From positions 310,001 through 374,000 of the forward strand of contig NZ_JAFLNC010000002.1 of NCBI RefSeq assembly GCF_017313765.1: a stretch of 64,000 nt of DNA, given 5' to 3'. Shown here piece by piece: positions 37,698 to 52,568 of the stretch. The translations under genes were made by a program, and so were the position numbers. The notes beneath the pieces were generated by a model, which had not been told where the DNA came from, did not search any database, and saw nothing but the letters and a program-made list of their open reading frames with translations. The DNA comes from Sneathiella sedimenti. Its GTDB lineage: Bacteria; Pseudomonadota; Alphaproteobacteria; Sneathiellales; Sneathiellaceae. Positions within the stretch are counted from its first letter, which is position 1. Each line of letters begins with the position of its first letter.

Positions 37698-39217
37698 TAC
37701 GCTAATCCTAGTTTTTCGGCCAGGCCGATCCGTTGAAGTTTTCCTGTTGCGCCTTTCGGAATTTCATCCAGCAGCGTGATGCTGCGTGGCACCTTGAAGG
37801 CGGCAAGGCTTTTTGCGGCGAAGTCCCGGAGTTCTGCTTCCGTCGCCTGTTGTCCGTCCCGTAATACGATGGCTGCGGCAACTTCCTCCCCGAGCTTTTC
37901 ATGAGGAAGCGCGAAGGTCACGACCTGTTCCACCGCCGGATGGTTCATCAATACTTCATCAACTTCGCGCGGGGAAATTTTTTCGCCCCCGCGATTGATG
38001 ATCTCCTTCAACCGGCCGGTGAGGGAGAGATATCCGTCCGCGGACATGATGCCCTGATCGCCGGTCCGGAACCAGCCATTGGTAAAGGCTTCCGCGTTGG
38101 CCTTCGGATTATTTTCATAACCCGTTGTAACATTCTCTCCGCGAATAACGATCTCCCCGGTTTCGCCAGCTTTTAGGAGAAGGCCATCTTCCGACATAAT
38201 GGCAACCTCTGGTCCTGATGCGATACCGACACTTCCGGGGATGCGCCGGGCAGGGGGCAGCGGGTTGGCCGCCATCTGGTGCGAGGCTTCTGTCATGCCA
38301 TAGGCCTCGATCACCGGGCAGTGCCACATTTCCTCCAGGGCCGCCATCACCTGCGGCGGCAGCGAGGCCGAGGAAGAGCGGATAAAGCGAAGCTTGGCAG
38401 CCTTGACGATTGCTTCATTGCGGGCCCCGCGCGCTAAGATAGCCTGATGCATGGTTGGAACCGCCGTGTACCAGCTCGGCTTTTCCTCATCAATCCATCC
38501 AAAAACCTTCAACGCGTTGAACCCCGGCGTACAGGTCACGCTTGCGCCGGCTTTCAGGGAGGAAAGTACCGCCGCAATGAGCCCGTGAATATGAAATAGC
38601 GGCATGATGTTGAGGCATTTATCCGTTGGCGTAAGGGCCAGCGAGTGGGCAATGTTCCGCGCAGATGCAGTAACATTCCGGTGGCTGAGCGGCACGATTT
38701 TGGGCCGCGACGTCGTGCCGGAAGTATGCAGGATGAGCGCAATATCTTCGGCCTCCGCTTTACCCGGCGAGCCAGCGTCCCCAACCGGGGCTCCTACCAG
38801 CTCAATAAGACCTGCGGGAGCATTTTCCGGCACAGTGAGCTCAATCAGGCTCACCCCGAGCTTTTTGGCGACATCAACCGCCGGGCTTTTGCTGCCTTTT
38901 TCGACGATCAGGGCCTTGGCTTTCAAATCTTCAAGGTAGAATTCAAACTCCTCGGCCTTGTAGTCGGGATTTAGCGGGGCCGTGGTCGCGGCGCAGGCGA
39001 CCGTCACAAAGGCGCTGGCCATTTCCGGACCGTTTGGCAGGACAATCGCAACGCGATCACCGCGACCGATCCCAAGACTATTCAGTGTTTCTATAACATT
39101 GGCGCTCAGCTCCCGAAGGGCGGCATAGCTAAGCGCGTTTCGCTCGGGCGCACCGATGGCGGCGTCTTCGCCAGCACCGGCATTGATAAGATCGAGCATC
39201 GTCGTCGCATCTGTCAT
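37697..39217 (-). CDS. Acyl-CoA ligase resembling oxalate-CoA ligase (AAE3/Pcs60 type)
   Basis: A 506-residue ANL ligase. LHTSGTTSRPKIVPLSHRN is the ATP-binding loop, and PLFHIHGLIAAVLSSL, RFIRSSSASLPPQVM and IEAYGMTEASHQMAANPLPP recall plant AAE3 and yeast Pcs60, which activate oxalate. The C-terminal lysine motif is KGATGKLQRIGLAEKLGL. It sits between a CaiC-like ligase and a ketopantoate-reductase-like gene in one operon. Oxalate or another short dicarboxylate is my inferred substrate; no oxalyl-CoA decarboxylase gene is present here, so the assignment is tentative. Confidence 0.88.
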   Translation of the reverse strand: MTDATTMLDLINAGAGEDAAIGAPERNALSYAALRELSANVIETLNSLGIGRGDRVAIVLPNGPEMASAFVTVACAATTAPLNPDYKAEEFEFYLEDLKAKALIVEKGSKSPAVDVAKKLGVSLIELTVPENAPAGLIELVGAPVGDAGSPGKAEAEDIALILHTSGTTSRPKIVPLSHRNVTASARNIAHSLALTPTDKCLNIMPLFHIHGLIAAVLSSLKAGASVTCTPGFNALKVFGWIDEEKPSWYTAVPTMHQAILARGARNEAIVKAAKLRFIRSSSASLPPQVMAALEEMWHCPVIEAYGMTEASHQMAANPLPPARRIPGSVGIASGPEVAIMSEDGLLLKAGETGEIVIRGENVTTGYENNPKANAEAFTNGWFRTGDQGIMSADGYLSLTGRLKEIINRGGEKISPREVDEVLMNHPAVEQVVTFALPHEKLGEEVAAAIVLRDGQQATEAELRDFAAKSLAAFKVPRSITLLDEIPKGATGKLQRIGLAEKLGLA

Positions 39218-39236
39218 CCGTCTTCTTCTTTCCGGG

Positions 39237-40841
39237 TTAACCAGCTTTGGTTTCCGCGTCTATTGCTGGCAGTCTCTCCCTAAGTTCATTTTTGGCAATC
39301 TTCTCGAGAGTTGATCGCGGAAATTCATCAAGAACAATAACATCGCGGACAACCTTGAAGTCGGCAAGGTTCTTCTTGCAGGCACCGATAATTGCGTCCT
39401 TCAGATCGTCCGGCGCTCCCGGTTTCGGAATGACAAAGACAACCGGGACTTCGTCCAGCATGTAATGCTTTTGCCCGACAACCGCGCATTCTGCGATCCA
39501 GCCGGTTTCCATGACCACGGTTTCGATTTCCGATGCGGCAACATTCTCGGCACCGATCTTCAGCATGTCTTTCTCGCGATCCCCGAAAAACAGGTCGCCA
39601 TTTTCATCCATGCGGACATAGTCGCCTGTTTCGAACCAGCCATCCGCATCGTAGGACTTCGCATTGGCGTCAGGATTACGGAAATATTCCTTGAACATGC
39701 TGACACCACGCACCCCGCGGATATAGAGCAAGCCCCGTTCGCCCGGCTTGACATGACGGCCCTCGGGATCGCGAATATCAATATTAAATCCGGGCGAGAC
39801 ACGTCCGATACCCACGGCAGGCCCTGCATGATCCATGTCACTGACGATGCCTTGCGTAATGGTCTCCGTCATGCCCCACCAGCCCAGGGTCTTTATCCCG
39901 TAGGTCTCTTCGACCTGTGGAATGCGGATGCCGGCTCCCCAGAACCGGAAATTATGGTCCGATGGCGGATCCTTTGCGAGCAGGGCACTCACACAAAAAC
40001 GGATGATCGAGGCCCAGGTGCATTTGTTGCGCCGGGCCACATCCCAGAACCGGGAGGCCGAGAATTTCGGTTGAATAACGATGGTGCCGCCGATCCACAG
40101 GGTGCTCAGCATCGAGTAGGACTGGGCGTTCGTATGGAAGAGGGGGAGGAAAGCCATGCAGATATCCTCATGACGAAGCCGCATATGCGCGACATTCATC
40201 TGTGCCCCCCAAATCGCGTTGGCATGGGTCCAAAGGACGGCTTTCGGTCTTGACGTGGTGCCGGAGGTGAATTGCACACCGAGATCAGCAAACGGGTCCG
40301 CGGCACGGGCCGGGCAGGGGGCTGTCTCGGCGAGCAGGTCGGTGTAAGGAATATGGGGAATATCTGCGGGAACATCCGCGGGCGCGCCGGAATCGTTGTC
40401 GGTAACCGCCAGAAATTTGATGCCGGGCGCGGACTCATGCACGAGAGCGGCGAAGGAGGGCTGAGTAATTGCCGCGACTATCTCGGCGTGATCGGCGAAA
40501 TAGGTCATGTCCCTGGCCACAGATCGGGTGTTGGTGGACACAGCTACCGCGCCAACGCGGGCACAGGCGAACCAGGAAATCAAAAATTCCGGGCTGTTGT
40601 CCAAGTGCAGCATGACCTTATCGCCAAATGCGACGCCATTTTTATGCAAAGCCGCGGCCACGCGTTCCACCTGCGCGCCAAATTCGCCGTAGGTGAAGGT
40701 TTGAGAATTTCCGTCAAATGGCTCCCAGATGATAAACGGCTTTTCCGGGCAGCGTTCGACCCATTGGCGCAACAACCAGGGAATATCACGACCTTCGATC
40801 ATGGATTTATGGGATTGCGCGATGGTATCTATTAGCCTCAT
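39237..40841 (-). CDS. Acyl-CoA ligase (CaiC-like, AMP-forming)
   Basis: A 534-residue ANL ligase. Motifs are GVQFTSGTTSRPKAVLWTHAN (P-loop), WWGMTETITQG, the hinge DGWFETGDYVRMDENGDLFFGDREKDMLKIGAENV (in pieces) and a C-terminal PRSTLEKIAKNELRE in which the usual TGK is TLEK. It resembles crotonobetaine/carnitine-CoA ligases and related fatty-acid ligases. AGGTGAG precedes the ATG. It is the first gene of the three-gene minus-strand operon that ends at the terminator near 36650, and is divergent from the stress-regulated DUF6134 operon. Confidence 0.9.
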   Translation of the reverse strand: MRLIDTIAQSHKSMIEGRDIPWLLRQWVERCPEKPFIIWEPFDGNSQTFTYGEFGAQVERVAAALHKNGVAFGDKVMLHLDNSPEFLISWFACARVGAVAVSTNTRSVARDMTYFADHAEIVAAITQPSFAALVHESAPGIKFLAVTDNDSGAPADVPADIPHIPYTDLLAETAPCPARAADPFADLGVQFTSGTTSRPKAVLWTHANAIWGAQMNVAHMRLRHEDICMAFLPLFHTNAQSYSMLSTLWIGGTIVIQPKFSASRFWDVARRNKCTWASIIRFCVSALLAKDPPSDHNFRFWGAGIRIPQVEETYGIKTLGWWGMTETITQGIVSDMDHAGPAVGIGRVSPGFNIDIRDPEGRHVKPGERGLLYIRGVRGVSMFKEYFRNPDANAKSYDADGWFETGDYVRMDENGDLFFGDREKDMLKIGAENVAASEIETVVMETGWIAECAVVGQKHYMLDEVPVVFVIPKPGAPDDLKDAIIGACKKNLADFKVVRDVIVLDEFPRSTLEKIAKNELRERLPAIDAETKAG

Positions 40842-40938: not shown

Positions 40939-40968
40939 TGATCCAAACAGGCGCTTTCCTCGTATCAA
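40939..40968 (+). promoter_or_regulatory. ECF sigma (RpoE/ChrR-type) promoter for the DUF6134-SDR-SnoaL operon
   Basis: TGATCC (40939-40944), exactly 18 bases, then TATCAA (40963-40968). The gene start (GTG 40999) is 30 bases downstream with a GGGGG ribosome site between. The same TGATCC-N18-TA form occurs at the two divergent promoters near 48168-48245 and matches the known pattern for Rhodobacter sphaeroides RpoE (TGATCC -35). Confidence 0.72.
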
Positions 40969-40998
40969 GGGAAATATCTTGCGAAAAGGGGGCGTCGT

Positions 40999-41730
40999 GT
41001 GACCGGATATAAGTACTTCAGACATCTTTATTCAGGCTCCATTGGGTTGCAGGTTCTTTTTCTATTCTCAATGGCTGTTCTCACCAAGGACGTAGTGGCT
41101 TCACCAGAGGTGGCGGGAGACCCGCTTGGACTTTACGGACAAAGTCATGAATTCTCTGTACTCCGTGACGGTATCCCGGTCGGCCGGCACCTGTTGCTTT
41201 TTGAGCGCGAAGGTGACGCAGTTCGTGTGCAGAATGTTTTCAATATCGAGGTCAGTTTCCTTGGCATCTCGCTTTACCGGTTCGACTACCGGAGCAGGGC
41301 CCTTTGGGCGGCGGACGGGCTGCAGGCCATTGACATCACGATTAATGACGATGGCACCAACTCGGAGATAAGCGGGCGGCGTGAGACTACTGCCTTCAGG
41401 ATAAGCGGCGAGAACATGGCAACCGTGGAAGGCACCGAAATCTACCCGACCAACCACTGGAACAGCGGTGCCCTGAGTCAGTCCCGGCTGTTCAATACCC
41501 TGACGGGGAAAATGAACAATGTCACCATTATCAATGCGGGAGAGGAGACCGTTGCTGTGCGCGGTGGCACCGTCCGTGCGACCCGCTATGTCTATGACGG
41601 GGAACTGAAGCTGGATTCCTGGTACGACAGGCGGGGACGCTGGGTCAAAATGGCTTTCAAGGCAAAGGATAATTCGGATATGGTCTATTTTTGCGAAACC
41701 TGTCCTGTGGAGGTCGGATCAAGCGAATGA
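40999..41730 (+). CDS. DUF6134-family exported protein
   Basis: A 243-residue protein with an N-terminal hydrophobic export signal (about residues 12-34, GLQVLFLFSMAVLTKDVVAS). The mature part is beta-rich: LYGQSHEFSVLRDGIPVGRH, then RFDYRSRALWAADGL, the family-typical YPTNHWNSG and LFNTLTGKM, and a terminal YDGELKLDSWYDRRGRWVKM. It begins with GTG after GGGGG. It overlaps the following SDR gene (ATGA, 41727-41730). Its ECF-type promoter ties it to the ChrR sigma system; I infer a periplasmic or envelope role under oxidative stress. No enzymatic motif is evident. Confidence 0.8.
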   Translation: MTGYKYFRHLYSGSIGLQVLFLFSMAVLTKDVVASPEVAGDPLGLYGQSHEFSVLRDGIPVGRHLLLFEREGDAVRVQNVFNIEVSFLGISLYRFDYRSRALWAADGLQAIDITINDDGTNSEISGRRETTAFRISGENMATVEGTEIYPTNHWNSGALSQSRLFNTLTGKMNNVTIINAGEETVAVRGGTVRATRYVYDGELKLDSWYDRRGRWVKMAFKAKDNSDMVYFCETCPVEVGSSE

Positions 41731-42476
41731 CAAACGACGCTATATGGATTGTCGGTGGGAGCAGCGGGATCGGCCGGGAAGTCGCCCTGCAATATGTGGA
41801 CAAAGGCGTGAAAGTGATCATCAGCGCCCGCAGCGAGGAAAAGCTCGCAGAAATTGTCGCGCTCAACCCCGATATGATCGAATCATTGCCACTTGATGTC
41901 ACTGATGAGTCCTCCGTCAAGCTGGCGACCTATAAGCTCTATGCCAATGGAAACGGACCCAGGACCGTTATTCTGAACGCCGGAACCTACGCGCCAATGT
42001 CCTTCGATCATTTCTCCGCTGAAAAAGCGATGCGGGTAATGGAAGTGAATTATTTTGGCGTAGTTCGGGTGATAGAGCGTATCCTGCCGCACTTAATTGT
42101 CGGTCAGGCGGGCAAAATCGTTGTCGTTGCATCCGTAGCCGGATATCAGGGACTACCGCTTTCGCTTGCCTACGGACCCTCCAAGGCGGCGCTGATTAAT
42201 CTCTGTGAAGGTTTGCGGGTGGAACTGATGGGGAAGGGTGTGACGGTTCAGCTCGTGAGTCCGGGTTTCGTCAAGACACCGCTCACTGCAGGAAATAAAT
42301 TCCCGATGCCCTTCCTGATGGAGGTGAAGGACGCGGCGGCCCGCATGATCCGCGGTATAGAGGGTGACGCATTTGAAGTCACCTTTCCGCGACGCTTCGC
42401 CTTTATCCTGAAATTCATCCGGATGCTCCCATACGCGATTTCCCTGCCGCTTATCCGGAAAGGAACAGGTGGATGA
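41727..42476 (+). CDS. Short-chain dehydrogenase/reductase
   Basis: A 249-residue classical SDR: IVGGSSGIG cofactor motif, VILNAGTY, catalytic Ser in VVASVAGYQG and YGPSKAAL with the Tyr-x3-Lys pair. The fold branch resembles the dehydrogenases found in ECF/ChrR-controlled clusters of alphaproteobacteria. It overlaps the DUF6134 gene before it and the SnoaL-like gene after it (both ATGA), so the three are translated as a unit. A C-terminal hydrophobic stretch (about residues 228-246, FILKFIRMLPYAISLPLI) may tether it to the membrane, fitting a lipid substrate. Confidence 0.9.
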   Translation: MTNDAIWIVGGSSGIGREVALQYVDKGVKVIISARSEEKLAEIVALNPDMIESLPLDVTDESSVKLATYKLYANGNGPRTVILNAGTYAPMSFDHFSAEKAMRVMEVNYFGVVRVIERILPHLIVGQAGKIVVVASVAGYQGLPLSLAYGPSKAALINLCEGLRVELMGKGVTVQLVSPGFVKTPLTAGNKFPMPFLMEVKDAAARMIRGIEGDAFEVTFPRRFAFILKFIRMLPYAISLPLIRKGTGG

Positions 42477-42919
42477 CTGCCGCGAACACCAATCAAGCTG
42501 TACTTGACGCCTATATCCGTTATTTCGAGACCTTGAAGCCGGATACTGTCGATGATCTGGATAAATTGGCTTGCGAAGAGTTATATTTTGAAGATCCCTT
42601 TAACCAACTCGCCAACCGACGAGACGTGAAACGCCTGTTCCGTCAGATGTTTGTAGATATGGACGATCCTGCCTTCAAGATCAGCGCCAGTTTCTGGAGT
42701 GAAAATGGACAATCGGCTATTTTGAAATGGCGGTTTGCCGGAAACGCGCAGAAGATCGGCAGGCTCGACTTTGTAGGGGTATCGGAGATTCACTTTGACG
42801 AAAACGGCTTGATTGACAGCCATGTAGATTACTGGGATGCCGCGTCACGTTTCTATGAAAAGATTCCACTGATCGGTGCAGTCCTGCGGGTAGTCAGGAG
42901 GAAGCTTCGTCTTTCATGA
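42473..42919 (+). CDS. SnoaL-like/NTF2-fold protein
   Basis: A 148-residue protein with an NTF2-like cone fold pattern: an N-terminal helix VLDAYIRYFETLKPDTVDDL, EELYFEDPFNQL, a second helix, AILKWRFAGNAQ and GVSEIHFDENGLIDSHVDYWDAASRFYEKIP. Proteins of this type include steroid isomerases and small cyclases or dehydratases. It is the last gene of the ECF-promoted plus-strand operon and its final 26 bases overlap the end of the convergent DUF3833 gene, so the two operons are in antisense contact. Confidence 0.85.
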   Translation: MTAANTNQAVLDAYIRYFETLKPDTVDDLDKLACEELYFEDPFNQLANRRDVKRLFRQMFVDMDDPAFKISASFWSENGQSAILKWRFAGNAQKIGRLDFVGVSEIHFDENGLIDSHVDYWDAASRFYEKIPLIGAVLRVVRRKLRLS

Positions 42920-43430
42920 AGAAGAGGGTTACCGTGCCAATGGTGAAGCCCCAACGCGTAACTGTCGCGCGATTGATGATTACGTCGCCAGGCTGGCGGA
43001 ACAACCAGTCATCAAATGCCACTCGCCAGACGCTCTCACCTACCTTTAGATCCATGTCATAGCGCCAGTTGAGCGCATTTCCATAGCGAACGCCCTTTGC
43101 GGTGCCAACAACGTCGCCTGCCGTGCCTGAGTAGTGATGCTCTTTCTCTCGCTGGATGGTCCAGACACGCCTGTCAGTTTCGCCGTCCCGATAGACGAAA
43201 TACTCATCCAGCGTCAGGGTCTCGCCCTCAACGGTGCCATTAATGGTTACTTCAAACTGGCGGCGGAGATTGCCGAAGCGGTCCTCGAAGATGCCCCAGG
43301 CCTTGGTCTCACCCTCAAAATAGTCGAAAAGCTCGAGAGGTGGGGTCGTTTCCGCAAATTGTTCCGCCTTCATCCCGCCGCATCCTGCTAAAATTACCAA
43401 GGTGATTGTTACCACTGCGCTTCTGATCAT
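42894..43430 (-). CDS. DUF3833-family lipoprotein
   Basis: A 178-residue protein with a lipoprotein signal peptide: the lipobox LAGC falls at residues 14-17 (ILAGCGGMKA). The mature part has LFDYFEGETKAWGIFEDRFGNLRRQF, GTAKGVRYGNALNWRYDMDL and FDDWLFRQPGDVIINRATVTRWGF, which match DUF3833. It lies at the end of the five-gene minus-strand operon with the GPH transporter, CFA synthase, DUF1365 and flavin oxidoreductase, a set known to travel together. The role is probably in membrane-lipid modification, function unknown. Confidence 0.85.
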   Translation of the reverse strand: MIRSAVVTITLVILAGCGGMKAEQFAETTPPLELFDYFEGETKAWGIFEDRFGNLRRQFEVTINGTVEGETLTLDEYFVYRDGETDRRVWTIQREKEHHYSGTAGDVVGTAKGVRYGNALNWRYDMDLKVGESVWRVAFDDWLFRQPGDVIINRATVTRWGFTIGTVTLFFMKDEASS

Positions 43431-43446
43431 GCTGCCCTCTCCGGGT

Positions 43447-44781
43447 TCAACTGAGCGGCCGGTTGCGCCGCTGGAGCCGTCTATTTATTGCCTGCTGTTG
43501 ACGGGCCGTCAGGGGGTACCCCCACATCAGCGCCACTGCCGTTATCTTTAATACGGCAGGAAGCCAGCCATAGATCACCGCGAGACGAAAAGGGTCGATT
43601 TCGGCATCCCCGGAAGGCTGTCCCAGGTCGCCCTGACCCAGGATTACGAAGGCACCGGCAACGCCAAGACCGAGAGAAAGTTTTGTTGCCATGCTCCAAA
43701 GTGCAAACAGGAAGGAGGAGCTGTCGCGGCGGTTAAGATAGTTGTCCCAGTCCGCGACATCGGATTGCATGGCTGGCGGCAAGGCGAGATCGGCACCGAG
43801 GGAAAACCCTGTAATCAGGCAGATGACGCCAAAAAACATAAGGTCACCAGCACCGATCAACGGCACGGTCAGAAAGGCAAGGCAGGCGATAACCATGGCA
43901 ATGCCCCAGCTTCGATGCTTGCCGAGACGGCCGCTGAGCCAGATCCAGAGCGGAATTCCGAGGATACCGGACAGGAAATAGATAAACAGGAGGTATGAAT
44001 TATACGCTTCCGGCAGTACGAGAACATGGGTGATGAAGAGCGGGAAGCACGCTGTGGCAATGCCAATGGAAAGCCCGCTGAGAAACCAGGCACTCAAGAG
44101 CCGGAAAAAGAGCCGGTTTCCGGATAGCCCGGAGAGGGATTTCAACAGTTTAAGCGGTGGCTGGTGAAGGCGGCCCGTCGGCAGGCTGAGCAGCAGCGGA
44201 AAAACAATGACACCGCAACCGACAACGAAAACGGCCGCATAGGCAAGCTGTTGTCGCGCACCGTAGTCGGCCGTAATAACAAGAAAAATACTCAGGGCCA
44301 GAATGCCGACAAGCCCCGAAAGCTCCCGCGTGGCGTTGAGGCTGACCCGCGCGTGATAGTCACTGGTAAGTTCCACTGTCCAGGCGAGATACGGGATCTG
44401 CACGATCGTCCAGCCAAGAAGCAACAGCCCATACCAGACAAAAAGATAGAGATCACCTGCCGACTCGGACGGTGTAAAAAGGGCGTAAAGCGCTGAGCCG
44501 CAAATGATCGCGCCAATGGCAATTTGAATCTTCTTCCCTAGCCGCCAGCGACGGAGATAATCGGAGAGCAAGCCAACAATAGGATCGCTGATGACATCGC
44601 TGATCCTGACGAGTAGCAGGATAAGTCCCGTCCGGACGAGACCGAGGCCAACCGTTTCCGCATAGAACGCCGGAAGGAGGACAAACGCCGGGATCAGCGG
44701 CATCGCCATAACGGCACCGGGCAGGGCATAACGCAATATTGCCTGGCGTGGGAACTCAGCGGAGTTCAAAGATGACGACAT
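43447..44781 (-). CDS. GPH-family (MelB-like) MFS transporter
   Basis: A 444-residue inner-membrane transporter with about 12 hydrophobic segments. LLVRISDVISDPIVGLLSDYLRRWRLGKK is the family-typical loop after segment 2 with its basic end. It looks like a glycoside-pentoside-hexuronide symporter, but the member in this conserved cluster travels with lipid-modifying genes, so a lipid or stress-metabolite substrate is as likely as a sugar. A long upstream frame exists; the ATG at 44781 overlaps the end of the cfa gene by 26 bases, which implies coupled translation. Confidence 0.85.
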   Translation of the reverse strand: MSSSLNSAEFPRQAILRYALPGAVMAMPLIPAFVLLPAFYAETVGLGLVRTGLILLLVRISDVISDPIVGLLSDYLRRWRLGKKIQIAIGAIICGSALYALFTPSESAGDLYLFVWYGLLLLGWTIVQIPYLAWTVELTSDYHARVSLNATRELSGLVGILALSIFLVITADYGARQQLAYAAVFVVGCGVIVFPLLLSLPTGRLHQPPLKLLKSLSGLSGNRLFFRLLSAWFLSGLSIGIATACFPLFITHVLVLPEAYNSYLLFIYFLSGILGIPLWIWLSGRLGKHRSWGIAMVIACLAFLTVPLIGAGDLMFFGVICLITGFSLGADLALPPAMQSDVADWDNYLNRRDSSSFLFALWSMATKLSLGLGVAGAFVILGQGDLGQPSGDAEIDPFRLAVIYGWLPAVLKITAVALMWGYPLTARQQQAINRRLQRRNRPLS

Positions 44782-46000
44782 CAATAGATTTCTGGCGAAA
44801 GCCTGCTTCGCAATATTGCAGGTAAAATTCCCACATGCGCTTAAACCGCTGATCAAATCCCAGCGGTTCGATGTCACTCCACTTGGCGAGGAATTTCTCT
44901 TTCCATAGTTTTAGCGTGGTTGCGTAGTCGCCGCCAAATTCCTCCCGGATGCGTGCCGTCAATCCATTCCGAGCCGCCGCATTGATAAAAGCTGCTTTCG
45001 ACGGGAGCTGCCCGCCTGGAAAAATATAGCGCTGAATAAAATCCGCAGATTTCCGGTAGTGGTTGTACCGCTTTTCATCAATGGTGATGACCTGGATCGC
45101 TGCGCGCCCGCCGGCCTTCAGGTTACGCTTGATGGCCGCGAAATAGCTGTCCCAGTTTTCCTGACCCACGGCTTCGAACATCTCAATGGAGACGATGCCA
45201 TCGAAACGGCCCTCCTGGTCCCGGTAGTCCCGGAAGTGGAAATTCGTCTGATCCTGAAGCCCAGACTGTTTGGCCGTCGTTGTTGCGTAGGCGAGCTGTT
45301 CTTCAGAAAGCGTAATTCCGTCGACAGTTGCACCATATTCCTGCGCGGCGAGACGGGCAAAACCGCCCCAGCCACAGCCGATTTCAAGAATCTTCATGTT
45401 TTTTGAAACACCGGCAATTTCCGCGATGCGACGGTATTTCTCCTGCTGGGCGTCGGCGAGGGATTGATCGTCCTTGGTGAACAGGGCCGCTGAATAGGTC
45501 ATGGTTTCATCCAGCCAGTGGCGATAAAAATCATTCCCGAGATCATAGTGATAGGCAATATTCCGCTGGCTGCCGGTCCGGCTGTTTCGGGCGCGTAAAT
45601 GCCGGAGAAAATTCACGAAACCGGAGAGCCATTTACCGACCATCGCGGATTTGAGATTGTTTTCGTTGCACAAGGCAAGCTCTATCAACTCGGTAATGTC
45701 CGGGCTTGACCAGTCGCCATCCATATAGCTTTCGCCAAGGCCGATATCGCCGGATTTCAGGATGCGCCTGGCCGCCCGTTCATGATGCAGGCTGACTGTT
45801 GCAACGGGTTCTCCGGGGCGCGCCGGGCCAAATTCAAGTCTTTCCCCGGTCGGTAGAAAAACAGTCAACTGACCGACTGCCATCCGGGAAAGGCTGAGCG
45901 TCAGGGCTCTGAGCCAGGGGTCTGTAAGCTTCGGAAATGCCGCAATGAGATCCTTGGGATCACTGGCAATCAAGTCAGTTTGCGGGGTGACGTCCGTCAT
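44756..46000 (-). CDS. cfa: Cyclopropane-fatty-acyl-phospholipid synthase
   Basis: A 414-residue enzyme that transfers a methylene from SAM to cis double bonds of membrane phospholipids. The SAM-binding GCGWGGFARLAA motif lies near residue 200, preceded by the family-typical YHYDLGNDFYRHWLDETMTYSAALF (in pieces). The N-terminal lipid-binding domain is present (about residues 1-130), so the protein is full length. It directly abuts the DUF1365 gene (no gap) and overlaps the transporter gene. Cyclopropanation or related methylation protects unsaturated lipids from oxidation; a place in an ECF/ChrR regulon supports that. Confidence 0.92.
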   Translation of the reverse strand: MTDVTPQTDLIASDPKDLIAAFPKLTDPWLRALTLSLSRMAVGQLTVFLPTGERLEFGPARPGEPVATVSLHHERAARRILKSGDIGLGESYMDGDWSSPDITELIELALCNENNLKSAMVGKWLSGFVNFLRHLRARNSRTGSQRNIAYHYDLGNDFYRHWLDETMTYSAALFTKDDQSLADAQQEKYRRIAEIAGVSKNMKILEIGCGWGGFARLAAQEYGATVDGITLSEEQLAYATTTAKQSGLQDQTNFHFRDYRDQEGRFDGIVSIEMFEAVGQENWDSYFAAIKRNLKAGGRAAIQVITIDEKRYNHYRKSADFIQRYIFPGGQLPSKAAFINAAARNGLTARIREEFGGDYATTLKLWKEKFLAKWSDIEPLGFDQRFKRMWEFYLQYCEAGFRQKSIDVVIFELR

Positions 46001-46801
46001 CTATTTCTCCTGATATTTTTCGATCATGGGCGGGGTGGTCGGCGCTGTGTTTCTTGCATTTGCATCTGGCCGCGGCACAAGTTTCATGCCTTTCAGCCAA
46101 AGTTTCAGCGCCTCCCAATGGATTCCGGCAATAACCTTTAGACTGTTGAACGGGAATTTCAGTATCGCCAGGCCGAGTGTGCGGCGGTTTAGAGGACTGA
46201 GTTGGCCAATAAAGGAGGCGTTCATTATTGGTTTATCGTCATGGAACTGGCGTATGGAAAGCGCGATGGATTCACCCGGCGGCAGAATAGAAAATTCATA
46301 ACGGCAATCCATCGGCATAAACGGGGAAACGTACAATTCCTTGGGACAGGCATGTTTCATCAATCCTTTTGAATTGGCCGAACCTGCAGGGAGGATGTAG
46401 CTATGTCTTTCACCAAATGTATTGCTGACCTCATAGACCAAGGCGATCAGAGTGTCCTCGGCGTCATAACAATAGTAAGTGCTGAGCGGATTGAAGGCAT
46501 ACCCGAATATGCGCGGAATACAGAGCAATCGCACCGAGGCGATCTCTTCATCTATCCCCTGTTGTTTTAGCTGCGCAAGGACGCGTGCTTTTAAGTCTGT
46601 GGACGTGCCGTTCCCGAAGTCTTTCGTGAAAAAAGAAACAATATTGCGTTTATTGACCGATAGAAAAGGAATACGCCGTCCAAGGTCCGCCAGTTCATCA
46701 AGATCAATGAGCAGATAAAAAATCCGGTAGTCGAGATGGTGTCCGACGGGATTTAGTCGCCGGTGAGTAACCACTCCATTATATAAGGCGCTTTTTCGCA
46801 T
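46001..46801 (-). CDS. DUF1365-family protein
   Basis: A 266-residue protein matching DUF1365: SALYNGVVTHRRLNPVGHHLDYRIFYLLIDLDEL, FNPLSTYYCYDAEDTLIALVYEVSNTFGERHSY and KELYVSPFMPMDCRYEFSILPPGE (each in pieces). The family is almost always encoded between an FAD amine-oxidase-like protein and a CFA synthase, as here, and is thought to help modify acyl chains; its reaction is not settled. It begins 5 bases after the flavoprotein stop and ends exactly at the start of cfa, so translation is coupled. Confidence 0.9.
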   Translation of the reverse strand: MRKSALYNGVVTHRRLNPVGHHLDYRIFYLLIDLDELADLGRRIPFLSVNKRNIVSFFTKDFGNGTSTDLKARVLAQLKQQGIDEEIASVRLLCIPRIFGYAFNPLSTYYCYDAEDTLIALVYEVSNTFGERHSYILPAGSANSKGLMKHACPKELYVSPFMPMDCRYEFSILPPGESIALSIRQFHDDKPIMNASFIGQLSPLNRRTLGLAILKFPFNSLKVIAGIHWEALKLWLKGMKLVPRPDANARNTAPTTPPMIEKYQEK

Positions 46802-46806
46802 CAGCG

Positions 46807-48135
46807 TTAGGCAACCTCTGCAAAGGGCAAACCAGTTGCATCCTTCTGCAGGTAAATGCGTGATCGTGACGGGTCGACGTGCCAGGGGCGCGACTGACCA
46901 CCCAACGCCTCCGCAACTGCAAGGCCGGATTGAATGCCGTCTTCATGAAAACCGTATCCGAAATAGCTACCACAAAACCAGAGGTTTTTTTGTCCCTGCA
47001 GGTTCCAGAGCATCTTTTGCGCCGCAATCGCCGAATTGTCGAACAACGGATGGTCATAGGGAAAGCTTCTTATAACCGCGCCCCGTTCAGGTTCGATTGC
47101 GGGGTTAAGGGACACGAAGTAGTCCTTGTTCGTATTCAGGTCCTGAAGCCGGTTCATCCAATAGGTAACGGAAAGCTCCTGTTGAGAGGTGGTTTCATGG
47201 TTGCCGGCAATATAGTTCCAACTCGCCCAGGCCTTACGTCGCTTCGGCATGATGGCTGGATCGGTGTGTAGAATTGCAAGATTTCTCTCGTATTTGAAGG
47301 CGCCCAGCAATTTTCTCTGAGCCGATGTCGGTTCCGCAATCAGGGAAAGCGCCTGATCAGCGTGGGTCGCTATGACAACATCGTCGAACTGTTGTACATG
47401 TCCGTCTCTGCACTCAACCAGTGTGCCGGATTTCTCGGTATGAATTTTGGCAACGGCGCTGTTAAGGCGAATGCGACCGGCAAGAACCTCTGCGATCTTG
47501 TTGACATACTGGCGACTGCCACCGGTCACTGTCCGCCACTCCGGTCGGTCCGATATCTGCAAGAGACCGTGGTTTTGGCAAAACCGTATGAACGCCGCGG
47601 CGGGGTAGTCGAGCATGTCTTCGGCAGGGGTTGACCATATGGCGGCACCCATAGGCAGCAGATGATGGTCGATAAAGCTCCGCCCATAACTGCCATAATC
47701 AAGCAGTTCGCGCAAAGTCCAATGTTCTGTCTCCGCGCGTTCCATAAATGTTGGCGCTTCACGATAAAATTTGAAGATATCACGGATCATTACCCAGAAG
47801 GCGGGCCGGAACAGATTTGATTTCTGAGCGAAAAGCGCCGCCAGAGACGTTCCCGCATACTCGATCTTGCCACTACCGACGGATACGCCGAAAGACATCT
47901 CGGTAGACTGGCTGGCAATGTTCAGATGCTCGAAAAATGCGACCAGATTGGGGTAGTTTACCTTGTTATAGACGATGAACCCGGTGTCGATAAATTGGCC
48001 GTCGACTTCAACAGTGTTGCTATGGCCGCCGAGGCGGTCATCCTTCTCGAATAGAGTCACTTCGTGATTCTGCGACAATAACCAAGCCGCTGACAACCCC
48101 GAAATACCGCTCCCGACTACAGCAATTTTTTTCAT
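46807..48135 (-). CDS. FAD-dependent amine-oxidase-like oxidoreductase (COG2907 type)
   Basis: A 442-residue flavoprotein. KKIAVVGSGISGLSAAWLLS is the dinucleotide-binding start and FEKDDRLGGHSNTVEVDG the following acidic strand. IDTGFIVYN and the C-terminal NLWFCGSYFGYGFHEDGIQSG are typical of this group, found with DUF1365 and CFA synthases, where a role in acyl-chain desaturation or oxidation is suspected. It is the first gene of the five-gene operon and has its own TGATCC-N18-TATCTC promoter. Starts at 48147 and 48135 are both possible; I use the one directly before the Rossmann motif. Confidence 0.9.
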   Translation of the reverse strand: MKKIAVVGSGISGLSAAWLLSQNHEVTLFEKDDRLGGHSNTVEVDGQFIDTGFIVYNKVNYPNLVAFFEHLNIASQSTEMSFGVSVGSGKIEYAGTSLAALFAQKSNLFRPAFWVMIRDIFKFYREAPTFMERAETEHWTLRELLDYGSYGRSFIDHHLLPMGAAIWSTPAEDMLDYPAAAFIRFCQNHGLLQISDRPEWRTVTGGSRQYVNKIAEVLAGRIRLNSAVAKIHTEKSGTLVECRDGHVQQFDDVVIATHADQALSLIAEPTSAQRKLLGAFKYERNLAILHTDPAIMPKRRKAWASWNYIAGNHETTSQQELSVTYWMNRLQDLNTNKDYFVSLNPAIEPERGAVIRSFPYDHPLFDNSAIAAQKMLWNLQGQKNLWFCGSYFGYGFHEDGIQSGLAVAEALGGQSRPWHVDPSRSRIYLQKDATGLPFAEVA

Positions 48136-48167
48136 TCGTTCATCCATAGTTTTCCATCGAATATCCT

Positions 48168-48197
48168 GAGATACGAAGCGAAAACCGGGATGGATCA
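48168..48197 (-). promoter_or_regulatory. ECF sigma promoter for the flavoprotein-DUF1365-cfa operon
   Basis: On the minus strand TGATCC (48197-48192), exactly 18 bases, then TATCTC (48173-48168). The first start codons are 21 and 33 bases downstream, giving a very short leader. The element is the divergent twin of the sigma-gene promoter at 48216. Confidence 0.72.
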
Positions 48198-48215
48198 CAA
48201 AAATCGGATCCGGAA

Positions 48216-48245
48216 TGATCCAGTTACCAATATTCACCGTAATAG
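48216..48245 (+). promoter_or_regulatory. ECF sigma autoregulatory promoter
   Basis: TGATCC (48216-48221), exactly 18 bases, then TAATAG (48240-48245), 52 bases before the sigma-factor ATG. This is the form expected for self-activation of an RpoE/ChrR operon. Confidence 0.75.
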
Positions 48246-48296
48246 GTTAGACTAACGTGAGACACATTGTGGTTGTAACGATTTTTAAAGGCAAGC

Positions 48297-48887
48297 ATGA
48301 CCTCACCGGGCGGTATCAGGCAGGACAAAACGGGCGCGCGTGCGCTCCCGGACGATCTGGACAGGGATCTGACGGCTGTTGGGCTCGATCAGGATGCGAC
48401 TGCGTTCCGGCGGTTGTTCGCAAACCTCGCGCCGCGGCTGAAATTTTTCCTGATCAAGGGCGGCATGATTGAAAGCGCCGCCGAGGACGTCATGCAGGAA
48501 ACGATGATGAAAGTGTGGCGCAAGGCGGAGATGTACGACAGTTCCAAAGCTTCGGCTTCCACCTGGATCTACTCGATTGCGCGAAATGTGAAGATTGACC
48601 GGCTGCGTAAGGAGCATCGACCTGAACCTGATCCCGAAGATCCGTGCTTTGTTGCGGAAGATCCGGAAACCGGTGAGCAGGCAGTCAGCCGAAAACAGGA
48701 CAGAGAACGCATACAGAAGGCTATGGCACTGCTGCCACCGGAACAGATGACAATTATTAAGATGTCCTTTTTTGAAGAAAGGTCGCACGGCGAAATTGCC
48801 GAGATGCTGGAAATTCCTCTTGGGACTGTAAAGTCCAGGATACGGTTGGCATTCGGAAAAATCCGTGCGGAATTGGAGGATTTGTAA
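48297..48887 (+). CDS. rpoE: ECF RNA polymerase sigma factor (RpoE/ChrR-partner type)
   Basis: A 196-residue ECF sigma factor. Region 2 contains AAEDVMQETMMKVWRKAEMYD and STWIYSIARNVKIDRLRKE, and region 4 holds LPPEQMTIIKMSFFEERSHGEIAEMLEIPLGTVKSRIRLAFGKIR (each in pieces). The next gene, overlapping by one base (TAATG), encodes a ChrR-type anti-sigma. In Rhodobacter sphaeroides the homologous pair responds to singlet oxygen. The TGATCC-N18-TA motif found before this operon and two others in the window fits that sigma's known -35. The likely role is to activate lipid-protection genes when the anti-sigma is removed. Confidence 0.92.
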   Translation: MTSPGGIRQDKTGARALPDDLDRDLTAVGLDQDATAFRRLFANLAPRLKFFLIKGGMIESAAEDVMQETMMKVWRKAEMYDSSKASASTWIYSIARNVKIDRLRKEHRPEPDPEDPCFVAEDPETGEQAVSRKQDRERIQKAMALLPPEQMTIIKMSFFEERSHGEIAEMLEIPLGTVKSRIRLAFGKIRAELEDL

Positions 48888-49561
48888 TGAGTATTCGACA
48901 TCATATTGGCGATGATACGCTGATGGCATATGTCAATGGAACGCTCGTTGAACCACTATCAGTGGTTGTTGCTACCCATCTGGCAATTTGTCCCAGATGC
49001 CGCAAAAGCGCAGCGTTGATGGAGGATTTGGCCGGATTGTTGTTAATGGAAGCGGAAACAGCACCTCTTTCCCCGGCCGAAGAGGCAATGGCTGACATAA
49101 TTCCAAGCAGCGCCTCTCCTGACGCTGGTAACGACGACCAGCCTCTGATAAAACCGGATTATTCAAATACCGGGGTGCCGATGCCGCTTGCCGAGCGCAT
49201 GCCGGCGACGCTCGATGATATTCCCTGGCGGACGTTAATTCCCGGTATCAGCCATTATCCGTTACCGAAATCCGGTTCACAGAAGAACAAAGGTACGCTT
49301 CGTCTGCTGAAGATTGCGCCGGGCAAGACCATGCCAGAACATAGCCATACGGGGCAGGAGCTTACCCTGATCCTTCGTGGTTCCTATATCGATGACCTTG
49401 GTCGCTTTCAGACGGGCGATATCGCCGATCTGGATAGTGAAACCCTGCATCAGCCTGTCGCTGATACGGCGGAGGACTGCATCTGCCTGATCGCGACCGA
49501 TGCCCCCCTCAAATTCTCCGGCTTTTTCAGCCGCCTGTTGCAGCCAGTTTTTGGAATTTAG
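48887..49561 (+). CDS. chrR: ChrR-type zinc anti-sigma factor with cupin domain
   Basis: A 224-residue anti-sigma. The N-terminal zinc domain has His6, His31, Cys35 and Cys38 (HLAICPRC), at exactly the same positions as the zinc ligands reported for R. sphaeroides ChrR. The C-terminal cupin has His152, His154 and Glu158 (PEHSHTGQE) and His188 (TLHQP), with the same 2-4-30 spacing as the ChrR cupin metal ligands. The N domain sequesters the sigma factor; the cupin is needed for the singlet-oxygen response. It starts on the TAATG overlap with rpoE, so the two are made in a fixed ratio. Confidence 0.93.
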   Translation: MSIRHHIGDDTLMAYVNGTLVEPLSVVVATHLAICPRCRKSAALMEDLAGLLLMEAETAPLSPAEEAMADIIPSSASPDAGNDDQPLIKPDYSNTGVPMPLAERMPATLDDIPWRTLIPGISHYPLPKSGSQKNKGTLRLLKIAPGKTMPEHSHTGQELTLILRGSYIDDLGRFQTGDIADLDSETLHQPVADTAEDCICLIATDAPLKFSGFFSRLLQPVFGI

Positions 49562-49744: not shown

Positions 49745-49787
49745 TTAAGGATGTATAAGGAACACCTTAAGGTTAATGCCTTACCTT
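49745..49787. repeat. Cluster of TAAGG/CCTTA inverted repeats upstream of the radical SAM gene
   Basis: Within the 250-base gap between chrR and the radical SAM gene, TTAAGG (49745-49750), TAAGG (49756-49760), the palindrome CCTTAAGG (49765-49772), CCTT (49779-49782) and CCTT (49784-49787) are packed together. TAAGG-AACA-CCTTA and AAGG-TTAATG-CCTT are both exact dyads. It may be a multi-site operator or alternative mRNA hairpins just before the start at 49812. The rest of the gap holds only a weak AGCATC/GATGCT hairpin (49592-49612). Confidence 0.4.
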
Positions 49788-49811
49788 CAATACCGGTATA
49801 CTGCAGGACTA

Positions 49812-51833
49812 ATGGCAAACATTCGTATTTATCTCGCCGATCTGACCCACAACGGTCTGGTGCTCTCTTCCAACGTTTTTCCTCTTTCGATCGGTTTAGT
49901 GGCCGCCTATTTGCTGGAGAAAAAGCCAGACGGGGTCGATGTCGAACTTTTTAAATATCCCGAAGACCTGAGCGCTGCCCTGGACAAGGCTGTTCCGGAT
50001 GTTATCGGTTTTGCCAACTATTCGTGGAACATGGATATCTCCCGTCAGTATGCCCGGGTGATCAAAAAACTTTGGCCAGAGACCGTCGTGGTTTTTGGCG
50101 GACCTAATTATGGTCTGTCGGATGGCGAAGTTTCGGAATTCTGGCGTAATAACCCGAATATCGATTTCCATGTCGTTCAAGAAGGCGAGGAAGCATTCGT
50201 TCGGCTGTTGGATACCCTCATTGACGCAGATTTCGACGTCGATGCCATCAAGGCTGAACGCCGCGAAATAGGCAATGTGCATTACAAGGTAGGTGATGAG
50301 GTGGTCAAGGGGGCTCCGCTCCCGAGACTCGATCTTGAGGATGTCCCGTCGCCCTATCTAATGGGCTTGATGGACAAATTCTTTGACGAGAATCTAGGTC
50401 CGATGATCCATACGACGCGCGGTTGCCCGTTCAAATGCGCCTTCTGCACGGAGGGGAGTAAATACTACAACCTTGTCAGTCAGCGCGAAGGGCAGCTTGA
50501 GCGGGAGATGCATTATATTTCCGCACGCGTGCGCGGCCCCCGTGACCTATACATTTCCGACGCTAATTTCGGCATGTTCAAGCAGGACTATGAAAAAGCG
50601 CGTATAATTGCCGATTGTCAGGAAAAGTATAACTATCCGAAATATGTCCATGTTTCGACCGGAAAGAACCAGAAGGAACGGGTGGTTGATATTGTCAAGA
50701 GACTGAACGGGGCGGTCAGCATGGCGGCGTCCCTGCAGTCGACGGACCCGACAGTTCTGGCCAATGTTGCGCGATCCAATATTTCTGTCGAGAAATTATC
50801 CGAAGCCGGAAAAATGGCGAACACCACTAATACTGGCACCTATTCCGAATTGATTTTAGGCCTTCCGGGAGATTCCTTGAAGGCGCATACGCAGTCTTTG
50901 CGTGATACCGTTGAAATGGGCTTTGATAATATCCGGATGTATCAGCTCATTATGCTGCCGCAGACAGCGCTCAACACGCCGGAGAACCGTCAGAAATATA
51001 ACATGAAGACCAAATACCGGATCATGCCGCGGTCTTTTGGACGCTATGAGGTTGCCGGTGAGAGCTTTACGGCCGTTGAATCGGAGGAAATCCTGGTCTC
51101 CAACGAGACGCTGCCTTTCGATGACTATATTGCCTGCCGGGAACTGGACCTGACGATCGAGATCCTGCATAACGGCAAGGTGTTTGCTGAAATTCAGGGG
51201 CTTTGTAAGGCGCTCGGGCTGTCCTGGTTTGATTTCATCCTGCGCTTCTATGAAAACCGCCGAAATTTCTCCGATGCCATTACGGCCATGTATGATGATT
51301 TCAAATCCGGCACGTCGGAACGGCTTTGGGACAACGTGGATAGCCTTGCCGAACACGTTCACAGCAATATTGAAGAAATGCTCAACGATGAGCGCGGAAC
51401 CAATGAAATGTCGACGGGGAAGGCGACCTCGTTCTTCCTGCTGCTGGACGACATGAACCGGGTCTTGTTCGCGCTCCTGAAAGACTGGCTTGAGGAACTG
51501 GATCGTCTTGATGATCTGATGATTGCCTATATCGCCGATCTGGAACGTTTCAGCTTGTTGCGCAAGCATCGTCTGCTGACATTGTTGGAGGATGAAAGCG
51601 ATCATTTCTCCTTCGATCTGGTGGCGGCAGAGAAAGAATCGTTTCAGGTTTTGCCTGACCAGATAAAGGTCACGGACAAGGGACGATTTATCATGGCCCA
51701 TCAGCCACATCAGCGTGAAATGATAGAAAACTACGCCGATGAATTCGGAGACAGCTTTGACGGGCTCGGCAAAATGCTGATGCGGTATCCGCATATACAT
51801 CGATTATTCCGAAAACCCGTCGCGGTCCAGTAA
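49812..51833 (+). CDS. B12-binding-domain radical SAM protein
   Basis: A 673-residue protein with an N-terminal cobalamin-binding-like Rossmann domain (about residues 1-150) and a radical SAM core. The iron-sulfur motif is CPFKCAFC (Cys205, Cys209, Cys212), preceded by MIHTTRG and followed by YISDANFG and LILGLPGDS. No DxHxxG motif is visible, so cobalamin, if bound, would be base-off without that histidine. A 270-residue C-terminal part has no recognisable motif. The start at 49812 has AGGA a short distance upstream and begins at the family's usual N-terminus. The gene is followed by two SDRs and sits at the edge of a polysaccharide-type locus. Methylation, rearrangement or C-C bond chemistry on a sugar or lipid is possible. 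Confidence 0.88.
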   Translation: MANIRIYLADLTHNGLVLSSNVFPLSIGLVAAYLLEKKPDGVDVELFKYPEDLSAALDKAVPDVIGFANYSWNMDISRQYARVIKKLWPETVVVFGGPNYGLSDGEVSEFWRNNPNIDFHVVQEGEEAFVRLLDTLIDADFDVDAIKAERREIGNVHYKVGDEVVKGAPLPRLDLEDVPSPYLMGLMDKFFDENLGPMIHTTRGCPFKCAFCTEGSKYYNLVSQREGQLEREMHYISARVRGPRDLYISDANFGMFKQDYEKARIIADCQEKYNYPKYVHVSTGKNQKERVVDIVKRLNGAVSMAASLQSTDPTVLANVARSNISVEKLSEAGKMANTTNTGTYSELILGLPGDSLKAHTQSLRDTVEMGFDNIRMYQLIMLPQTALNTPENRQKYNMKTKYRIMPRSFGRYEVAGESFTAVESEEILVSNETLPFDDYIACRELDLTIEILHNGKVFAEIQGLCKALGLSWFDFILRFYENRRNFSDAITAMYDDFKSGTSERLWDNVDSLAEHVHSNIEEMLNDERGTNEMSTGKATSFFLLLDDMNRVLFALLKDWLEELDRLDDLMIAYIADLERFSLLRKHRLLTLLEDESDHFSFDLVAAEKESFQVLPDQIKVTDKGRFIMAHQPHQREMIENYADEFGDSFDGLGKMLMRYPHIHRLFRKPVAVQ

Positions 51834-51842
51834 AGCGGGCCC

Positions 51843-52568
51843 ATGTCGACTACTGGGGAATATTTCAAAAGCAGGGTCCTGATTACAGGGGGGACAGCCG
51901 GGATCGGTCTCGCGACGGCAAAGCGCTTGCTCCTCGATGGCCATCAGGTGTTTATCTGTGGTCGAAGCGCGGAGAAACTGGCAGCCGCGCAAACTGAACT
52001 GGCGGGTATGGACGTGGCATCGTCGATAGAAGGCACGGTTTGTGATGTCCGTGATTCTGATGCTGTTTCGCGCATGGTGGATCAGGCCGCGAGTGTGATG
52101 GGTGGTCTCGATGCGCTGGTCAATAATGCGGGCGTCGGTCGTATCGCCGATGTAGAAGCGATGTCCGTCGAGTACTGGCGCGATATGATCGACATTAATC
52201 TGAACGGCGTGTTTTACTGCTGCAAGGCGGCGATCCCCTATCTTAAAAGCTCACCAAAAGGAAATATCATCAATATTGGAAGCCGGGCGGGGCGCTACGC
52301 ATTTCCGGGTGGCACTGCCTATAACGCGACTAAATTCGGCCTTCAGGGTTTTTCCGAGGCGCTATTTCTCGATTTAAGCAAATACGGGATCGGTGTGAGC
52401 CTTGTCGCCCCCGGTGCGGTGGCAACGGGATTTGCGGGGGTTGAGGATGAGGATTGGCATTTGCAGCCGGATGACATTGCAAAGGTTATTGGTGATCTGC
52501 TGCGCAATGATCAGAGGGCTAATGTCAACTGGATCGAGATCCGCCCGGGTTTACGCGATCTTAGGTGA
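51843..52568 (+). CDS. Short-chain dehydrogenase/reductase
   Basis: A 241-residue classical SDR: ITGGTAGIG, VNNAGVGR, catalytic Ser in NIGSRAGRY and Tyr-x3-Lys in YNATKFG. It begins 10 bases after the radical SAM stop and is followed immediately by a second SDR, so it is part of the same operon. Its substrate is probably an intermediate from the radical SAM or sugar pathway. Nothing odd is seen in length or motifs. Confidence 0.9.
   Translation: MSTTGEYFKSRVLITGGTAGIGLATAKRLLLDGHQVFICGRSAEKLAAAQTELAGMDVASSIEGTVCDVRDSDAVSRMVDQAASVMGGLDALVNNAGVGRIADVEAMSVEYWRDMIDINLNGVFYCCKAAIPYLKSSPKGNIINIGSRAGRYAFPGGTAYNATKFGLQGFSEALFLDLSKYGIGVSLVAPGAVATGFAGVEDEDWHLQPDDIAKVIGDLLRNDQRANVNWIEIRPGLRDLR

Follow-up and report, generated by a model that had tools for sequence, protein, structure and literature searches.

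The cluster analysed here occupies positions 40939-49561 of a 64,000-nucleotide stretch of the Sneathiella sedimenti genome (3.58 Mb), hereafter the window, which corresponds to positions 310001-374000 of contig C2 (NZ_JAFLNC010000002.1). It holds ten genes, rather than the nine of the original prediction, in three operons: an RpoE-type sigma factor gene followed by chrR on the plus strand, a FAD-DUF1365-CFA-like-MFS-DUF3833 operon that diverges from it on the minus strand, and a plus-strand DUF6134-SDR-SnoaL operon that converges on the latter. Gene content and promoters support the view, put forward in the original prediction, that the locus is an RpoE-ChrR regulon with three promoters of the same type, to which the convergent operon also belongs. 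It is of the ECF11 kind and has genes of the furan-fatty-acid types among its members. The features are, in window coordinates:

40939-40964, plus strand: ECF11 promoter TGATCC-N16-CGTA of the DUF6134-SDR-SnoaL operon (motif; conserved before the same operon in relatives)
40999-41730, plus strand: DUF6134 protein, 243 amino acids, GTG start (Pfam PF19630, E 1.7e-44)
41727-42476, plus strand: SDR, same gene type as core-regulon RSP_1087 (adh_short, E 2.4e-41)
42473-42919, plus strand: SnoaL/NTF2-like protein (SnoaL_2, E 3.4e-9)
42894-43430, minus strand: DUF3833 lipoprotein-like protein, Cys at position 17 (Pfam, E 1.5e-63)
43447-44796, minus strand: MFS_2 (GPH/MelB-type) transporter (MFS_2, E 1.1e-57)
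44756-46000, minus strand: CFA/CMAS-type lipid methyltransferase, UfaM candidate (CMAS, E 2.2e-87)
46001-46801, minus strand: DUF1365 protein, UfaO type (furan ring oxygenation) (DUF1365, E 4.8e-77)
46807-48135, minus strand: FAD/NAD amine-oxidase-like protein, UfaD type (acyl desaturase) (Amino_oxidase, E 6.5e-30)
48172-48197, minus strand: ECF11 promoter TGATCC-N16-CGTA of the furan-fatty-acid operon (motif)
48216-48241, plus strand: ECF11 promoter TGATCC-N16-CGTA of rpoE-chrR (motif)
48297-48887, plus strand: RpoE-type ECF11 sigma factor (best solved match 2q1z_A, E 1.9e-38)
48887-49561, plus strand: ChrR anti-sigma factor, zinc ASD plus cupin (TIGR02451; 2z2s_B, E 4.9e-44)

A GTG at 48237 was considered as the start of the FAD gene and set aside for the ATG at 48135, which was chosen because it fits the family match; the GTG would place the promoter inside the gene.

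The three sites predicted at 40939 (plus), 48197 (minus) and 48216 (plus) were all found, at 40939-40964, 48197-48172 and 48216-48241, and their expected placement relative to start codons is borne out, as the -35 element begins 60 nucleotides before the start codon of DUF6134 (GTG), 62 before that of the FAD gene (ATG) and 81 before that of the sigma factor gene. The motif by which they had been marked, TGATCC-N18-TA, fits all three but is only weakly special, with five matches in the window against 1.72 expected and two of 100 shuffles reaching five. The genome scan that had been proposed for this form returned 126 matches in 3.58 Mb against 15 for the reversed pattern, and the loose motif was rejected as evidence because it is too frequent. 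The sharper form TGATCC-N16-CGTA occurs exactly three times in the window, once per operon, against 0.13 expected, and none of 100 shuffles reached three; the remaining two window matches of the loose form do not fit it. Genome-wide there are 13 such sites and none of the reversed pattern. Inspection of the flanks placed seven of the 13 ahead of a same-strand gene, namely the three cluster operons, the photolyase gene phrB (site at C3:22087-22112, 47 nucleotides upstream), a catalase, a FecR-domain protein and a LysR regulator, while the other six fall within genes. This consensus is printed for Pseudomonas syringae in the available part of PMC5507510 (Table 3), and the same TGATCC/CGTA form is described for Shewanella (excerpt of PMC4336711). 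The further loci with such sites in the same genome are:

L065, 2698-4293: catalase
L009, 1501-2246: FecR-domain protein
L020, 1501-2511: LysR regulator
L064, 5571-7113: phrB

In the divergent promoter pair (48172-48241) the -35 boxes stand back to back with 18 bp between them, and two polymerases may therefore compete for this region. The corresponding gap measures 13-20 bp in ten of the 12 relatives having both sites, and 36 and 54 bp in the other two.

The two regulatory genes are homologous to those of Rhodobacter sphaeroides. The best solved match of the sigma factor is R. sphaeroides RpoE (2q1z_A, E 1.9e-38), followed at a distance by a match of 4.7e-15. ChrR scores 181 bits on TIGR02451 (cut-off 124.5), and in its alignment to R. 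sphaeroides ChrR (2z2s_B, E 4.9e-44) the H/H/C/C and H/H/E/H positions, which we take to be the zinc ligands, are kept. The core regulon of Dufour 2008, as given in an excerpt of PMC5507510, consists of rpoE, chrR, RSP1087 (SDR), RSP1088 (lipoprotein), RSP1090, RSP1091, phrB and cfaS. Matched by family type, all eight gene types are present in S. sedimenti: the cluster accounts for seven, and the eighth, phrB, follows a separate site at another place in the genome. In this comparison RSP1088 would be the DUF3833 protein, judging from its lipoprotein label and its size.

The minus-strand genes had been described in the original prediction as lipid-related, and three of them can now be assigned more closely: the FAD gene is of the ufaD type, the DUF1365 gene of the ufaO type, and the CFA-like gene is a candidate ufaM. 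According to the sections of PMC7380195 consulted, RSP1091, RSP1090 and RSP2144 are UfaD, UfaO and UfaM of furan-fatty-acid synthesis, with UfaO carrying DUF1365 and UfaD being of the FAD/NAD oxidoreductase type. The UfaO-type and UfaD-type genes, assigned by family type as described there, are adjacent in the cluster. On two CFA-synthase models the cluster CFA-like protein scores 295 (cut-off 600) and 286 (cut-off 400), and a second CFA-type protein of the genome (C5:80505-81620) scores 570 and 322, likewise below both cut-offs. Because the cluster protein lies well below the CFA-synthase cut-offs while the second protein comes close (570 vs 600), the former is regarded as the UfaM candidate. 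The three family types share one operon, as they do in Rhodopseudomonas palustris (RPA2569-2571), whereas in R. sphaeroides RSP2144 lies apart from the others. Distinct from the known UfaM-UfaD-UfaO pathway, the Sneathiella operon also holds the MFS_2 and DUF3833 genes. In R. sphaeroides, furan-fatty-acid genes are reported to be required for singlet-oxygen-driven turnover of ChrR (excerpts of PMC6852236 and PMC3818230).

Support for the membership of the third operon came from its conservation. Near relatives were represented by 25 genomes from the same order, all but one belonging to a single genus. The clade-A DUF6134 loci of these genomes were compared together with the 15 loci whose ChrR passes the cut-off, with gene starts set at gene or match starts. 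If one mismatch in the -35 element is allowed, a site precedes 14 of 15 third-operon heads (ten exact), 14 of 15 FAD genes (nine exact) and 14 of 15 sigma factor genes (13 exact). Where near relatives have no DUF6134 gene at the operon, the SDR gene heads it behind a site of its own; in the DNA around the chrR loci of two genomes (G022 and G001) no third-operon head was found. A wider set comprised the best 80 of 142 loci found by one peptide pattern and consequently represents clade A only; one locus (L099) had too little upstream DNA for the promoter count, leaving 79. DUF6134 is followed by a same-strand SDR gene in 73 of the 80, with SnoaL as well in 64, and sigma factor and ChrR genes are present on 50 of the loci. 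The DUF6134 upstream regions contain an exact site in 47 of 79 cases and a site with at most one mismatch in 59, compared with means of 0.05 and 0.20 over 40 rounds of shuffling and none for the reversed motif; alternative spacings of 12 to 20 gave at most one match. The promoter spacers are 30% identical, which is near random, except that column 7, outside the search pattern, carries 0.91 bits and is mostly A or G. The set includes 19 Thalassospira loci among the 80, and, counted by eye with one mismatch allowed, 18 of these 19 and 41 of the 60 others carry a site.

Alternatively, the site at 40939 could be a chance match, with the DUF6134 operon under another sigma factor and its genes neighbours of the regulon by gene order only. 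The 126 genome matches of the loose motif, the six of 13 sharp sites that lie inside genes and the 20 of 79 related loci without a site would fit such an explanation. It is nevertheless highly improbable in view of a site that persists, although the spacer is free to vary, in 59 of 79 loci, stand-alone operons included, and in 14 of 15 near relatives. Twelve DUF6134 loci had no cluster gene from outside this operon on the DNA examined; eight of these (10-21 kb of DNA) keep the exact site and four have none. ChrR over the cut-off was found in 12 of 13 genomes checked, among them all eight with stand-alone operons and exact sites; the thirteenth is a 2.3-Mb genome. The third operon is a probable member of the RpoE-ChrR regulon, as the original prediction had proposed for this locus, and in relatives its promoter is conserved and the spacer is not.

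The arrangement is not peculiar to S. sedimenti and is found in many alphaproteobacteria. On a 406-kb plasmid of Azospirillum thermophilum (L192, 11851-22678) the same ten gene types appear in the public annotation, and each of the three head genes has a site ahead of it, with no fourth site; a thiamine-enzyme gene lies between the FAD and sigma factor genes, and the methyltransferase is annotated short. As the whole cluster is carried on this plasmid, it can move as a unit.

Beyond gene order, DUF6134 and ChrR tend to occur together. In a survey of 385 alphaproteobacterial genomes drawn across the class, with ChrR counted over the profile cut-off and kinship ignored in all statistics, 151 genomes have DUF6134 and 135 have ChrR (both in 103, DUF6134 only in 48, ChrR only in 32, neither in 202; odds ratio 13.5). 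DUF6134 is thus present in 103 of 135 genomes with ChrR and in 48 of the 250 others. The two genes lie within 15 kb of each other in at least 35 of the 385 genomes, and in at least 11 DUF6134 is directly behind chrR on the same strand, at 54-320 nucleotides between profile matches, with overlapping reading frames in some. No sigma factor gene was found beside chrR in the surrounding DNA of nine of these 11 loci, which have the order chrR-DUF6134-SDR (L159-L164 and L166-L168). An exact TGATCC-N16-CGTA site stands before chrR at seven of the nine loci, a site with one mismatch at one, and no site at the last. The nearest RpoE homologs of these nine genomes are located elsewhere in the genome, and around those of six no TGATC[C/T] site was seen when the surroundings were read. 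At one of these six (L179) a ChrR-family gene over the cut-off stands beside the RpoE homolog, and the N-terminus of its product is without the usual zinc Cys/His pattern; in a seventh genome of the nine (G376) ChrR over the cut-off lies 21 nucleotides from the RpoE homolog. A second DUF6134 copy in S. sedimenti (C2:396590-397120, 26% identity) was not counted as a member because its 9-kb stretch contains no exact or one-mismatch TGATCC-N16-CGTA.

The DUF6134 protein of the window scores 152.5 bits on PF19630 (cut-off 27.9). It has an N-terminal hydrophobic segment, on which basis it would be exported, and only two cysteines, both in a C-terminal CxxC. A structural model built on a 39-row alignment (pLDDT 87, pTM 0.78) was matched equally by a bovine-sperm axoneme chain and by Brucella EipB (DUF1849), each at Z 13.8, the latter with a root-mean-square deviation of 3.7 over 189 residues, followed by a DUF1089 protein (10.5), LmcA (10.0), VioE (9.3), LolA and RseB (8.3 each) and MucB (7.7). 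The model suggests a LolA/EipB-like fold, EipB being itself a periplasmic barrel that resembles LolA and LolB (excerpt of PMC10787603). While EipB and the LolA, LmcA and RseB folds are thus among the closest solved folds, the gene neighbours differ from those of DUF6134, and a Pfam scan of the DUF6134 protein at E 0.001 matched DUF6134 alone, with no match to the RseB/MucB or DUF1849 sequence families.

Since RseB and MucB share the fold predicted for it, DUF6134 could instead stand in the signal path itself, as an envelope protein of the RseB kind, sensing lipids that are oxidised or carry furans and controlling the degradation of ChrR by DegS/RseP-type proteases. Its position directly behind chrR in at least 11 genomes would be in keeping with this role, as would the report in the consulted part of PMC3818230 that in R. 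sphaeroides, where the authors found no RseB homolog, proteolysis of ChrR is promoted by homologs of DegS and RseP. If true, ChrR systems would have a lipid-sensing branch analogous to RseA-RseB, with DUF6134 as the envelope partner of ChrR. However, the RseB match (LolA-like N-terminal fold, root-mean-square deviation 5.7 over 142 residues) is equalled or surpassed by LolA, LmcA and EipB, a Z near 8 can reflect a common arrangement, the Pfam scan gave no RseB family match, and genomes with ChrR and no DUF6134 exist. ChrR is moreover usually held to be cytoplasmic, which leaves its contact with an exported DUF6134 unaccounted for. Although the sections of PMC3818230 consulted argue for a membrane association of ChrR, a sensory role of this kind appears unlikely.

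A different function for DUF6134 would follow from its CxxC, through which it might work as a redox protein of the thiol type and repair or quench proteins or lipids of the envelope once these are oxidised. The first cysteine is present in all 39 aligned clade-A proteins and the second in 36 (the other three matches stop short of it), and the window protein has no cysteine outside the motif. As opposed to this, 17 of 20 chrR-linked DUF6134 loci are without CxxC, the listed fold matches are not thioredoxins, and the cysteine pair may be structural, making a redox function improbable. The CxxC was accordingly rejected as a family-wide feature; it marks clade A.

In the reading preferred here, DUF6134 is placed with the DUF3833 and MFS_2 proteins. 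The DUF3833 model (pLDDT 92) is a ten-strand barrel matched by a designed barrel (Z 15.7, the highest), nitrobindin (Z 14) and fatty-acid-binding proteins (Z 9-10), which suggests a lipocalin/nitrobindin-like fold, and its Cys17 is nearly invariant. The MFS_2 family contains human MFSD2A, a lysolipid carrier. In the 25 near genomes the three families are nested, with clade-A DUF6134 in nine, the cluster-type MFS (E below 1e-50) in the same nine and DUF3833 in ten. In two relatives (L052 and L058) DUF6134, MFS and DUF3833 share a second locus, apart from the SDR and SnoaL genes, behind an exact site in the former and a one-mismatch site in the latter. Outside the genus the link is looser, as there are stand-alone DUF6134 operons without nearby MFS and DUF3833 genes. 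Two predicted binders of greasy ligands together with an MFS_2 transporter point to lipid handling, and the three would form an envelope lipid-handling module. MFS_2 transporters also include MelB (excerpt of PMC8329300).

The convergent SnoaL and DUF3833 genes have their last 26 bp in common (42894-42919), and overlaps or near-contacts recur in relatives. No intrinsic terminator was found between the convergent operons in 42700-43200. If co-induced, the convergent transcripts of these two genes should overlap.

While the S. sedimenti locus shares with R. sphaeroides a homologous sigma factor and ChrR, the promoter form, a furan-fatty-acid operon beside rpoE-chrR and a phrB gene elsewhere under such a promoter, its organisation differs. 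The SDR gene lies in a third, convergent operon with DUF6134 first and SnoaL last, and no rpoH gene follows any of the seven gene-preceding sites, a genome-wide result that covers exact sites only. In addition, the excerpt of PMC3818230 describes conservation of RSP_1089-1087 as restricted to Rhodobacteraceae, whereas SDR, DUF3833 and MFS genes beside chrR were found far more widely in the loci examined here. The RpoE2-ChrR system of Shewanella oneidensis and PSPTO_1043/1042 of P. syringae use the same TGATCC/CGTA promoter and have cfa, phrB and SDR among their targets or orthologs, according to the parts of the sources consulted; DUF6134 is not named for either in the literature searched. For Vibrio, the available part of PMC5241685 describes a blue-light-induced CFA-type gene only. 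The RpoE-ChrR system itself is known, and the least described part of the cluster is the DUF6134-SDR-SnoaL operon. Its description as little known in the original prediction holds for DUF6134, a name not found in the literature searched, although the core-regulon source (Dufour 2008) might hold such a gene under another name; it does not hold for the SDR, which as RSP_1087 is part of the published core regulon. A report of chrR-DUF6134 coupling was likewise not found in the literature searched, and the operon is not mentioned in the main text of PMC9040609.

Two AMP-ligase-like genes adjoin the cluster (37697-40841), with similar neighbours in five relatives (L049, L051, L053, L055 and L060). 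After chrR (49776-52568) follow a radical-SAM-like protein and a second SDR-like protein, both named by eye from the sequence; the former has a counterpart of 95% identity over 430 amino acids in Sneathiella sp. HT1-7 (L055).

Taken as a whole, the locus is probably a compact ECF11 (RpoE-ChrR) singlet-oxygen regulon in which three promoters control furan-fatty-acid enzymes and, it is proposed, envelope lipid handling, a reading that we hold with good confidence. Several observations weigh against parts of it. Sites with at most one mismatch are missing from 20 of the 79 upstream regions, four of the 12 stand-alone loci among them. Of the 151 genomes with DUF6134, 48 lack a ChrR that passes the cut-off, and on a Paracoccus plasmid (L193, 8263-12501) DUF6134 occurs with no ChrR annotated within 12 kb. 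DUF6134 is therefore not tied to ChrR everywhere, and the notion of a strict ChrR partner was rejected. On that plasmid it ends a gene run annotated as hemolysin, AMP-binding, SDR and TauD. In the other direction, 32 of 135 ChrR genomes are without DUF6134, and among 14 controls, none of which has DUF6134, Caulobacter has ChrR. As to the lipid-handling module, one near genome (G011), which has neither clade-A DUF6134 nor ChrR, carries DUF3833 next to an MFS gene of 29% identity. Among the structures matched by the DUF6134 model are also the axoneme chain, the DUF1089 protein and the enzyme VioE, and Foldseek alone returned only three rows at E 0.001 or better, which include the axoneme chain and VioE and contain no lipid carrier. 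Finally, deletion of RSP1087, RSP1088 or RSP1089 in chrR-deleted R. sphaeroides left the fatty-acid profile unchanged (excerpt of PMC7380195), so that furan synthesis does not depend on these accessory genes.

In the regulon proposed here, zinc-bound ChrR would hold the sigma factor until singlet oxygen leads to ChrR turnover, as carried over from R. sphaeroides. The freed sigma factor would then fire the three TGATCC-N16-CGTA promoters, those of rpoE-chrR, of the divergent furan-fatty-acid operon and of the convergent DUF6134-SDR-SnoaL operon. The UfaM-, UfaD- and UfaO-type enzymes would convert membrane acyl chains to furan fatty acids, again with the chemistry of R. sphaeroides, and as furan-fatty-acid synthesis is needed there for ChrR turnover, a positive feedback could result. 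Singlet-oxygen sensing, furan chemistry and feedback are in this way assumed for Sneathiella by analogy; the identities of the genes, the promoters and their conservation, the co-inheritance and the predicted folds come from the sequences analysed here. DUF6134, DUF3833 and MFS_2, inherited together in the Sneathiella group, may bind and move modified or damaged envelope lipids, and the SDR and SnoaL proteins may clean up by processing reactive lipid products.

In R. sphaeroides, RSP_1090, RSP_1091 and the DegS/RseP homologs are all involved in ChrR turnover, and the connection between them was still being sought in the part of PMC3818230 consulted. Being conserved, apparently exported, of a predicted lipid-carrier-type fold, under the same promoter and sometimes directly behind chrR, DUF6134 would be a candidate for handling or sensing those lipids. 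With it, three little-studied families, DUF6134, DUF3833 and a member of MFS_2, become testable as a single unit.

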